DNA from: a virus
Length of the DNA: 27,767 nt
IMG/VR virus record: IMGVR_UViG_3300029787_000251
Span: 1-27,767 of that record
Reading direction: 5' to 3' (one strand)
Below the pieces are notes generated by a model. That model saw nothing but the letters and a program-made list of their open reading frames with translations, did no database searches and had not been told where the DNA came from. How positions within the stretch are numbered: position 1 is the first letter of the stretch; each line of letters begins with the position of its first letter. This document shows positions 5,035 to 12,066 of the stretch, one piece after another. The position numbers and the translations under genes were made by a program.

Positions 5035-5574
5035 ATGGCAGAAGCACTCAAGACCGAAACCCGGGGTAGGCCCCCAATATCTGAGAACACACGACTTACC
5101 GGCAAGCAGTCGAAGTTCGTTGAACTTTACTGCACCCGCGAAGGCACTGAAACACTCCAAAACCTGGCAATCGAAGCGGGCTTTTCAAAGTCCGGTGCTC
5201 ATACACGAGCGTACGAAATGCTCAACCCCAAAAAGAGCCCGCACATATGCAAGGCAGTGCGAGAACGAAGGGCAGAGCTAAACGAAAAATACGCTGTCAA
5301 TTTTGGTCAACACCTAGCTGACCTCGGAAAGATCCGAGACCAATCTATAGCGGCAGGGAACTATGCCGCTGCTACTGCCGCTGAAAAAGCAAGGGGTCAA
5401 GCTGCAGGGCTGTACGTTAACCGCAGTGAGATTCGACACGGGAGTATAGATCAAATGTCAAAAGAAGAAGTCCAACAAGCTCTGAATGATTTGAAACGTC
5501 AACTCGGTGAAAAGGTTATCGAACATGAAGCAAACGGAGTCGAACTTCTGGAAGCGTCTCAAAAAGAGGATTGA
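5035..5574 (+). CDS. terS: Terminase small subunit
   Basis: This 179-residue protein should bind the phage packaging site and recruit the large terminase to start DNA packaging. After a short basic N-terminus (TRGRPPISENTR) it shows the terminase_2-type N-terminal pattern: LTGKQSKFVELY, then NLAIEAGFSKSGAHTRAYEML (a helix-turn-helix) and ICKAVRERRAELNEKY. A central Ala-rich helix (AGNYAAATAAEKARGQAAG) and a charged C-terminal helix fit the oligomerising and large-subunit-contact parts. It is unusually far from the large subunit at 10588, with ten genes between. It is the first gene to the right of the divergent region and overlaps the nuclease gene by 50 bases. Confidence 0.88.
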   Translation: MAEALKTETRGRPPISENTRLTGKQSKFVELYCTREGTETLQNLAIEAGFSKSGAHTRAYEMLNPKKSPHICKAVRERRAELNEKYAVNFGQHLADLGKIRDQSIAAGNYAAATAAEKARGQAAGLYVNRSEIRHGSIDQMSKEEVQQALNDLKRQLGEKVIEHEANGVELLEASQKED

Positions 5575-7563: not shown

Positions 7564-7586
7564 TCCTATATCGCAAGGTAGAAAAG

Positions 7587-7611
7587 ACCCGGAGTGATCC
7601 GGGTTTTTTTT
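7587..7611 (+). terminator. Intrinsic terminator
   Basis: ACCCGGA (7587-7593), loop GTGA, TCCGGGT (7598-7604), then T's. The stem-loop core CCCGGAGTGATCCGGG is identical to the terminator at 10153-10178. Confidence 0.92.
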
Positions 7612-7677
7612 GACTTGAAGATGGGAGTTATCCCAGATAAGATAACCGGACATTCTAAAACTTAGGAGTAAAAAAGA
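7610..7677 (+). promoter_or_regulatory. Promoter/operator/leader module (site C)
   Basis: The T-run of the preceding terminator leads into TTGACTTGAAG, then a perfect palindrome TGGGAGTTATCCCA (7622-7635), then GATAAGATAACC, then the leader GGACATTCTAAAACTTAGGAGTAAAAAAGA before ATG 7678 (positions 7648-7677). TTGAAG (7615-7620) and TAAGAT (7638-7643), 17 apart, form the best promoter; the palindrome lies in the spacer. AGGAGT is the ribosome site. Confidence 0.6.
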
Positions 7678-9334: not shown

Positions 9335-9354
9335 ACACTAACCAGAGAGAGAAG

Positions 9355-9380
9355 GCCCGGAGCGATCCGGGCTTTTTTTT
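9355..9380 (+). terminator. Intrinsic terminator
   Basis: GCCCGGA (9355-9361), loop GCGA, TCCGGGC (9366-9372), then eight T's. It differs from the terminator at 10153 by one loop base. Confidence 0.92.
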
Positions 9381-9392
9381 GGTCGTTCTATA

Positions 9393-9430: not shown

Positions 9431-10135
9431 ATGCACAAAATATTGATCGGCTGCGAGTGTAGCGGCACCGTCCGAGATGCGTTCCAAGAGCGCGGGTTTG
9501 ATGCGTGGAGTTGCGACATCAAGCCAAGCGAGACCCCGACTAACTCCCATTTGCAAATGGACGTACTCGAAGCATTGCGAGAGTTTGAGTGGGACATGTT
9601 TCTGTGTGCTCATGTTCCCTGTACGCGATTAGCTAACTCCGGGGTCCGCTGGCTCAACTCTCCCGCTCCGGGTAAAACCAAAGAGCAAATGTGGGCCGAG
9701 TTGCGTGATGGTGCGCGCCTGTTTCGGGATATGCTCGACGCAGATATTCCCGCAATAGCCGTCGAGAACCCCATCATGCACAAGCACGCGAAGCGGCTTA
9801 TCTGGGGTGAGGGCTACGAAAAGCTTTCTCGTAATGACGGGACGTTTATTAGGACCAGCCAACACCCGTACCAGTTCGCGCAGAGTGTCGACAGCCCGGA
9901 CAATCAAACCAAGCTTACGCATTTCTGGATCAAGAACCTACCCGCCTTGAAACCGACTAGCGATCTATCGAAAGAAACGGCCCGGGCCGATTGCCACAAC
10001 GCTCCCCCGGGACCGAACCGAGCCGCCGACCGTTCCCGATTCCATCGCGGAATGAGTGCGGCTATGGCTCGACAGTGGGGTGATTGGATCTTGGCGAATG
10101 TCCGCCCCCGATCCCGTGGTTACGTGGTAGCGTAG
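9431..10135 (+). CDS. C5-cytosine methyltransferase-like protein
   Basis: A 234-residue protein with an AdoMet-methyltransferase layout. A glycine-containing motif I variant (GCECSGTVRDAF, residues 7-18) is followed by a loop Asp (WSCDI, Asp29), a motif IV-like HVPCTRLANSG with candidate nucleophile Cys64, and VENP (111-114) in place of the usual ENV. Classical C5 enzymes have PPC at motif IV; here it is VPC. The C-terminal target-recognition region is short. It belongs to a phage family resembling DNA cytosine methyltransferases, perhaps protecting or modifying phage DNA. Activity and target cannot be read from the sequence. It is a single-gene unit with operator and terminator. Confidence 0.7.
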   Translation: MHKILIGCECSGTVRDAFQERGFDAWSCDIKPSETPTNSHLQMDVLEALREFEWDMFLCAHVPCTRLANSGVRWLNSPAPGKTKEQMWAELRDGARLFRDMLDADIPAIAVENPIMHKHAKRLIWGEGYEKLSRNDGTFIRTSQHPYQFAQSVDSPDNQTKLTHFWIKNLPALKPTSDLSKETARADCHNAPPGPNRAADRSRFHRGMSAAMARQWGDWILANVRPRSRGYVVA

Positions 10136-10152
10136 CCGAGAAACGAGAAACA

Positions 10153-10178
10153 GCCCGGAGTGATCCGGGCTTTTTTTT
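10153..10178 (+). terminator. Intrinsic terminator
   Basis: GCCCGGA (10153-10159), loop GTGA, TCCGGGC (10164-10170), then eight T's. It closes the methyltransferase unit and the block of small units. Confidence 0.92.
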
Positions 10179-10248
10179 GTCTGTCGTTTAACCAGTGAAA
10201 CTTGCGGGGGGTCCGCTGTCCGTGATCCCCCGACAAAATATCCCGGCC

Positions 10249-10365
10249 CCCGGGCCGCAGTCCGCGAACCGAAAACCGCGAACCGCGATACCAGGGTAGC
10301 GCGATACCTGGGTAGCAAATCTCGATACCAGGCAGCACCGATCCCGGGCCGAGGTCCGCGATCCG
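10249..10365. repeat. 23-bp direct repeat pair bracketing three 16-bp repeats
   Basis: Copies at 10249-10271 and 10343-10365 share the skeleton CCCGGGCCG--GTCCGCGA-CCG, 20 of 23 bases identical. Between them lie GCGATACCAGGGTAGC (10285-10300), GCGATACCTGGGTAGC (10301-10316) and TCGATACCAGGCAGC (10322-10336). All were read directly from the sequence. Confidence 0.75.
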
Positions 10366-10531
10366 ATCCGCTCGGAACGTGAACCGGGCTAGGGTCCCCC
10401 GGCGAATTGAGGCTAATCGGCTGCAGCGATCCGGCGGCGGCGGCGCGCGCATCGCGGCACCCGGGCGCGTGCGTGGGCATGTGTACCGGTGCAACTTTTC
10501 CGCAAACAATTACCAAAAAAATAAGAATGGC

Positions 10532-10559
10532 TTTCACTGGCAAAAAAACCTGCTATCCT
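10532..10559 (+). promoter_or_regulatory. Probable late promoter (extended -10) for the virion operon
   Basis: TGCTATCCT (10551-10559) is an extended -10 (TG-n-TATCCT), 16 bases after TTTCAC (10532-10537). It lies 28 bases before ATG 10588, the first gene of the packaging and virion operon, and resembles the TGTTATTCT element before 21612. An RNA would start near 10566. Confidence 0.45.
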
Positions 10560-10587
10560 GCCCCGAGATCCGTGGTCTGGGACCCCT

Positions 10588-12066
10588 ATGAATCTAGCCT
10601 TGGACACTGCCGAAGACACCCAAAAACTCCGCTTAGAACTGCGTCTAAAGCAGTTGGAGAAGGTTGAAGCTTGTCACCAAGAATTTTTACCATTTGTGCG
10701 TAGCATGTGGCCTGGGTTCATTGCGGGCCGTCACCACCACATCATTGCAGAGAAGCTTGAAGAGATAGCCAACGGCAAGTTGAACCGTTTGATCATCAAC
10801 ATGCCACCGCGACACACGAAATCTGAGTTCGCATCGTTTTTATTTCCTGCATGGATGATTGGTCGCAAGCCGGATATGAAGATCATTCAAGCCACGCACA
10901 CGACTGAGTTGGCTGTGAACTTTGGTCGTAAGGTCAAAAACCTTTTGGAGACGGACGAGTATCAGGAGATCTTTGAGACCACGCAGTTGTCACAGGACAG
11001 TAAGGCATCTGGTCGGTGGGACACGAAGTCTGGTGGTATGTATTACGCCGTGGGCGTTGGTTCGAACTTGGCGGGACGTGGTGGTGATCTGATTATTATT
11101 GACGATCCGCACTCGGAGCAGACTGCGATGTCCGCGAGTGGGTTTGAGAATGCCTGGGAATGGTATACGGCGGGTCCTCGTCAGCGATTGCAGCCTGGTG
11201 GCGCGATAGTTCTGGTACAAACCCGGTGGTCCGAGAAGGACATGACGGGTAATTTGATCCGTCAGATGGCTAGGGACCCCCACGCAGATCAGTGGGAGGT
11301 TGTTGAACTGCCTGCCATATTACCGAGTGGCGAGCCTACGTGGCCCGAGTTCTGGAAACGTGAGGAGTTAGAGAGTGTAAAAGCTTCGATACCCCCGTAT
11401 CAGTGGAATGCTCAGTATCAGCAAGCTCCAACCTCTGAAAGTCTGGCGATTTTAAAACGAGAGTGGTGGAAGATCTGGGAAGGGGCGAGTGTCCCGAACC
11501 TTCAATATGTGATCCAGAGTTACGATACGGCGTTCTCGAAACGCGAAACAGCGGACTATAGTGCGATTACAACGTGGGGTGTTTTTTATCCCGAGGAGGC
11601 TGGTGGACCGGCGGCATTGATATTATTGGATGCAAAAAAGGGTCGATGGGACTTTCCGGAGTTGAAACAGATAGCGTTAGAGGAGTATAAGTATTGGGAG
11701 CCGGAGACAGTTATTATTGAAGCGAAGGCTACAGGGACCCCTTTGACTCACGAGTTGAGACAGATTGGTGTACCTGTTGTAAACTTTACGCCAAGCCGAG
11801 GTACGGATAAACTGTCGAGAGCACATGCTGTATCTCCGTTATTTGAAGCAGGCATGATTTTCGCTCCTGATGAATCTTGGGCACATGAGGTTATTGAGGA
11901 ATGCGCTGCGTTTCCGAATGGGACGCACGACGACTTAGTGGATAGCACCACTCAGGCGTTGATGAGGTATCGACAAGGAAATTTTGTTAGTCTGCCCAGT
12001 GATGACACGTGGGGCGACTACGAAGGTAAACAGATGACGATTACGGCGGAATCCTATTATGGTTAG
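10588..12066 (+). CDS. terL: Terminase large subunit (packaging ATPase/nuclease)
   Basis: A 492-residue protein that drives DNA into the prohead and cuts it to length. The ATPase part shows the Walker A variant MPPRHTKSE (72-80), typical of this terminase class, Walker B LIIIDDPH (168-175), and a coupling-motif candidate VQTRWSEKD (210-218). The RNase H-like nuclease part shows SYDTAFSKRETADYSA (Asp313), IIEAKATG (Glu378) and HDDLVDS (Asp448/Asp449) as metal ligands. The length is normal and all motifs are intact. There is only a weak GGGA ribosome site before the ATG. The small subunit lies 5 kb upstream. Confidence 0.96.
   Translation: MNLALDTAEDTQKLRLELRLKQLEKVEACHQEFLPFVRSMWPGFIAGRHHHIIAEKLEEIANGKLNRLIINMPPRHTKSEFASFLFPAWMIGRKPDMKIIQATHTTELAVNFGRKVKNLLETDEYQEIFETTQLSQDSKASGRWDTKSGGMYYAVGVGSNLAGRGGDLIIIDDPHSEQTAMSASGFENAWEWYTAGPRQRLQPGGAIVLVQTRWSEKDMTGNLIRQMARDPHADQWEVVELPAILPSGEPTWPEFWKREELESVKASIPPYQWNAQYQQAPTSESLAILKREWWKIWEGASVPNLQYVIQSYDTAFSKRETADYSAITTWGVFYPEEAGGPAALILLDAKKGRWDFPELKQIALEEYKYWEPETVIIEAKATGTPLTHELRQIGVPVVNFTPSRGTDKLSRAHAVSPLFEAGMIFAPDESWAHEVIEECAAFPNGTHDDLVDSTTQALMRYRQGNFVSLPSDDTWGDYEGKQMTITAESYYG

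Follow-up and report, generated by a model that had tools for sequence, protein, structure and literature searches.

The window (the whole stretch of DNA that was analysed) is a 27.8-kb virus record of 27,767 nucleotides, with a mean G+C content of 0.475 (sd 0.047). Its large terminase subunit gene, terL, encodes a protein that is 56-66% identical to the TerL of Pelagibacter phages HTVC023P and HTVC027P and of phages 023Pt_psg01 and DSL-LC04. A G+C-rich repeat island lies between terL and a DNA methyltransferase-like gene (9431-10135; PHROG 757, E = 5e-44) situated immediately 5' of the island, in place of which relatives carry other genes. An intrinsic terminator closes the methyltransferase-like gene and marks the left border of the region. 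The features of the locus are as follows.

5035-5574, plus strand: terS-like gene (PHROG 51 terminase small subunit, E = 9e-7; Pfam Terminase_2, E = 1e-4, which is below the curated cut-off)
10152-10178, plus strand: intrinsic terminator, stem AGCCCGGA-gtga-TCCGGGCT, then T8
10201-10391, strand not applicable: G+C-rich direct-repeat array, hypervariable in sequence
10392-10415, plus strand: 24-bp core GGGTCCCCCGGCGAATTGAGGCTA, with a GGGTCCC palindrome at 10392-10398
10416-10480, strand not applicable: G+C-rich spacer, nearly constant in length and variable in sequence
10481-10513, plus strand: box B (GTGTACCGGTGCAACTTTTCCGCAAACAATTAC), conserved among relatives
10531-10559, plus strand: promoter-like block, TTTCACTG ... 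TGCTATCCT (extended -10)
10579-10585, plus strand: GGGACCC palindrome, 9 bp before the terL start codon
10588-12066, plus strand: terL, large terminase subunit (PHROG 38, E = 5e-109; Pfam Terminase_6C)
11273-11279, plus strand: GGGACCC inside terL (+685)
11734-11740, plus strand: GGGACCC inside terL (+1146)

The initial annotation described the island (10201-10500) as about 68% G+C, and its content is exactly 0.680, against a maximum of 0.62 elsewhere in the window; the top 300-base segment (0.687) starts at 10204. The sharp change in composition that it reported on both sides is present on the right, where G+C falls to 0.477 from 10501, but on the left there is a gradual rise from about 0.56. 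The split repeat it noted is real (24 nt at 10249-10272 and 10343-10366, 88% identity), as are the three short repeats, with GCGATACC-type copies at 10278, 10294 and 10315. The best direct-repeat score is 16.5, compared with 9.1 +/- 1.2 in dinucleotide shuffles and reached by none of 300 of them, and the excess is confined to 10201-10391, with none in 10392-10587. A proposed GC hairpin fared less well, its inverted-repeat score being matched by 65 of 100 shuffles. None of the five ORFs across the island matches Pfam significantly, in agreement with the view that no plausible gene lies here, and no reading frame is open throughout the island in the close relatives compared. A hidden gene was rejected, since family matches are absent and frames are not maintained among relatives; so were a structured RNA (nothing above threshold in Rfam, folding z = -0.02) and a tRNA, of which none was found.

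Comparison across relatives separates the left part of the island from the right. The G+C-rich repeat character of the left array is maintained in 98% of 44 distinct contigs, but the repeat sequence is mostly unrelated, even among relatives with near-identical TerL. Over the 200 bp to the left of the core, identity to relatives is 35-49%, whereas the core itself reaches 88-96% in these contigs; L112 and L147 have terL DNA that is 93-95% identical, yet share 42% over these 200 bp. The nearest relative, L127, is an exception, with 86% identity. The direct repeats at 10249-10365 had been put forward as TerS sites, but their sequence is unconserved and the conserved part of the locus, 10392-10587, lies outside that interval. 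The suggestion of a packaging site next to terL is thus supported in part, for the location and not for the repeats. We note that in L109, L144, L128 and others two further words recur 60-240 bp left of the core, AAACGTACCGCG and the inverted pair CGTGGAAGT...ACTTCCA.

A blind DNA scan of the 2.9 million viral contigs of IMG/VR with the core pattern GGGTCCCCC(n4)AAT(n)RAGGYTA matched 77 contigs; as the sequences are related, these counts are not independent. In every matched contig that is long enough, a terminase gene begins 180-219 bp 3' of the core. Two arrangements occur. In the first, which is that of the window, terL is the first gene after the core and terS lies 4-5.5 kb upstream or off the contig (5 kb upstream of the terL locus in the window). 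In the second, terS is directly 3' of the core, as in many relatives, and terL follows about 1.1 kb past the core. Because the core flanks terL or terS, whichever leads, it marks where the terminase operon begins. Among bacterial genome assemblies with the core, one contig has a terL that is 71% identical (L335) and one has no terminase match.

The conserved segment comprises, in order, the 24-bp core, a variable spacer, box B, the promoter-like block and GGGACCC, after which comes terL. The GTGCA of box B begins 97 bp after the start of the core, and 97-98 bp after it in most relatives, a spacing that holds although the spacer is unalignable. A scan with box B returned contigs with a recognisable core, again spaced 97-98 bp, together with one group in which TerS is different (58-61%), GGGWCCC is in the same place and the 3' half of the core is another sequence; a few unrelated matches lie within another gene. 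The promoter-like block reads TTTAACTG ... TGCTATATT in many relatives, and was not reported at 10531-10559 by a generic sigma-70 scan. The segment lies between the terminator and this presumed promoter and is therefore probably untranscribed. Two further observations concern its borders. The sequence TTTCACTGG (10531-10545, in the promoter-like block) recurs in inverted orientation as CCAGTGAAA at 10187-10201, left of the island, and both copies seem to co-vary in a few relatives. Intrinsic terminators at 7580-7615, 9347-9387 and 10145-10188 are near-identical (84-86% identity to the third), and each follows a successive gene; some related contigs end at terminators, perhaps because these near-identical repeats are shared there.

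The 3' half of the core varies with the type of TerS. It is present in contigs whose TerS shares 66% identity or more with that of the window and absent at 58-61%, and the association could be mere linkage, since terS is a neighbour, 200 bp from the core, in most relatives. L229 and L230 (same contig as L007) are exceptional in having a different TerS while retaining the 3' half without the exact palindrome. Their TerL is 92-97% identical to that of the window and their TerS only 53%, the core palindrome is altered to GGAGTCCC, and box B is retained; judged by these identities, the pair represents a natural swap of the small terminase subunit.

The palindrome itself recurs well beyond the core. 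Among relatives, GGGWCCC occupies fixed places at the core, at -9 of terL (68 of 77), at +584 (50 of 67) and at +1146 (43 of 59). More distant relatives often retain the start-codon site and +584, have further sites at +901, +1016, +1108 and +1273, and contain GGGNCCC even where terL is just 43-47% G+C. Synonymous-codon shuffles, which preserve the protein and codon usage, provide the null for in-gene counts; a ranking of sites by codon column was discarded as circular, the columns having been picked for having the motif. In terL, 119 GGGNCCC sites are observed against 19.8 +/- 4.9 in shuffles, a six-fold excess with z = 18 that is the strongest outlier of 128 palindromes tested (seven-base gapped and six-base). 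Genes in the first 5 kb after the terL start contain 70 sites (29.4 when shuffled), genes further downstream none (3.6 shuffled), and upstream genes are depleted, with 6 observed against 19.7. Ten long records together contain 76 sites. Of these, 44 lie in the 21.7 kb around the terminase genes and the other 32 are spread over the remaining 514 kb, a 33-fold difference in density. Other words show depletion of their own, GCCWGGC and CCCWGGG being nearly absent from the genes that precede the terminase operon in relatives and GGCGCC, CTTAAG and GCCGGC being depleted in terL, which possibly reflects restriction-site avoidance.

The named phages with the TerL identities given above have a single GGGNCCC close to terL. 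The sole GGGNCCC in the 40 kb of HTVC023P sits 26 bp before terL, and HTVC027P (-109), 023Pt_psg01 (-167) and DSL-LC04 (-69) each have one within 170 bp of it. These HTVC023P-type pelagiphages, 023Pt_psg01 and DSL-LC04 thus resemble the window in TerL and in a GGGNCCC 26-167 bp before terL, but the 24-bp core is absent from them, as is almost the entire in-gene array. The motif is absent near terL in phages with more distant TerL proteins (35-48%: MinM2, CRP-902, Pam1, ctsTn925), and there is no GGGNCCC in terL of lineages L279, L281, L293 and L328, for which no substitute palindrome was convincing.

The segment is conserved, tethered to the terminase operon and fixed in its spacing, and its palindrome is enriched and depleted at the DNA level. 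Because it is non-coding, tied to the terminase genes and rigidly spaced, and because the palindrome is kept in terL and avoided elsewhere, it fits a packaging site, and we consider it probable, with some reserve, that 10392-10587 together with the GGGNCCC sites extending into terL is the packaging-initiation locus of this phage group. Against this stand the altered palindrome of L229 and L230 and the TerL lineages devoid of GGGNCCC in terL. In the scenario that we infer, the core would serve as the binding site of TerS, perhaps together with box B; TerS seated there would dock TerL, which would cut at or near GGGNCCC, and packaging would then proceed toward the late genes. The sites in terL could offer additional places for binding or cutting, and the rarity of the palindrome elsewhere may keep packaging from starting at wrong places. 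A broader and more tentative proposal, somewhat less likely than not, is that an upstream core and synonymously selected GGGNCCC sites in terL, purged genome-wide, form a dispersed initiation system in a large uncultured group of marine tailed phages, with a reduced form in the SAR11 phages HTVC023P and HTVC027P.

A regulatory region could share several of these properties. Box B and the -10/-35-like block would be a promoter and GGGNCCC the operator of a phage regulator, with no packaging role; the element does mark the operon start whichever gene leads, the promoter-like block is conserved, and avoidance elsewhere would also be expected of regulator sites. The core, however, precedes the -10 by about 150 bp, the distance from the palindrome to terL ranges from -9 to -167 in the named relatives, and GGGNCCC recurs in terL far from any start with selection at the DNA level, so that we regard this explanation as rather unlikely.

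The ends of contigs bear on how a packaging locus would be used. Verified contig starts lie 0, 1 and 5 bp before the core, and one further verified start is inside the GGGNCCC site at the terL start; the two within 1 bp of the core compare with about 0.2 expected (p ~0.016 before any correction). These positions are suggestive of a packaging end and are ambiguous, because the G+C-rich variable flank also breaks assemblies. A third start at the core, in L182, was rejected as a stored-data cut, and none of the approximately 25 contigs carrying the TerS ends just left of the core. The starts at 0 and 1 bp would suit strict cos packaging, in which unit-length genomes have cohesive ends at GGGTCCCC, as would the palindrome, a candidate nick site that precedes the first terminase gene by about 200 bp, with a TerS-associated flank like that of lambda-like cos (PMC4669245). 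Most contigs run through the core, though, two complete relatives close into circles with end overlaps of 77 and 127 bp (four other long records do not), and there are several palindrome copies per genome, all of which replicating concatemers could also give. Some published relatives have likewise been circularised through terminal overlaps (PMC9599517). Strict cos packaging seems an unlikely account, and headful (pac) packaging appears the more likely mode, favoured by the core-crossing contigs and circular relatives, with the same proviso that replicating concatemers would look alike.

A recombination-prone G+C-rich spacer between gene modules, with slippage-born repeats lacking function, suits the left half (10201-10391), which is hypervariable and repeat-rich in nearly all relatives, but it does not fit the conservation of the core, the constant spacing or the distribution of GGGNCCC, which makes it very unlikely for the locus. 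A replication origin with iteron-like repeats is highly improbable: the repeat-rich G+C half does adjoin an A-rich stretch, but the cumulative GC skew minimum of the window is near 5.1-5.4 kb, away from the island, and the strict terminase linkage and the sites within terL would be unexplained.

Our literature search found no paper on the GGGNCCC/core motif and no description of a packaging signal for HTVC023P-type and related marine phages. Packaging sites near terL and repeat-based pac sites inside terminase genes are known, and the wide terL array with genome-wide avoidance is, as far as we have checked, undescribed. The preferred reading, a packaging-initiation locus, puts forward an exact candidate for the whole family, made up of the core, its spacing, the palindrome and the in-gene copies. 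If true, it would give a sequence handle on the ends and orientation of numerous uncultured genomes, and would exemplify how codon choice in a terminase gene can also carry packaging signals.

Among known systems, pac frequently lies a short way 5' of terL (PMC5000459), and the core is similarly located, 180-219 bp before the first terminase gene. The cos of lambda-like phages is about 200 bp and contains cosQ, cosN and cosB (PMC4669245); it has a similar distance upstream of the first terminase gene and, as here, a candidate cut site next to sequence linked to TerS type, its TerS-specific cosB beside a conserved cosN (PMC4669245) resembling the TerS-linked 3' half of the core. The present locus differs in that relatives assemble as circles, multiple palindromes lie in terL and cohesive ends are hypothetical; homologous R sites or an IHF site were not identified, and 10392-10587 has no significant direct repeat of the kind expected for cosB-like R sites. 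Morganella phage Mecenats66 has a preferred headful initiation site that was mapped from reads and confirmed experimentally (PMC9503643); circular assembly of relatives and site-crossing contigs are compatible with that type. The pac of P1 occupies 161 bp with seven hexamers in pacA (PMC10028697). Its words are TGATCA/G, Dam methylation is involved, and an IHF site is included in the 161 bp (PMC10028697). Here the word is GGGNCCC, it extends over approximately 2-3 kb, and the gene concerned is terL, preceded by a core. With GGGNCCC enriched before and inside terL, and not TGATCA/G in a small-terminase gene, the locus falls outside the P1 type, but it shares with P1 pac multiple short palindromic words at a terminase gene, partly in coding sequence and compatible with synonymous constraint.
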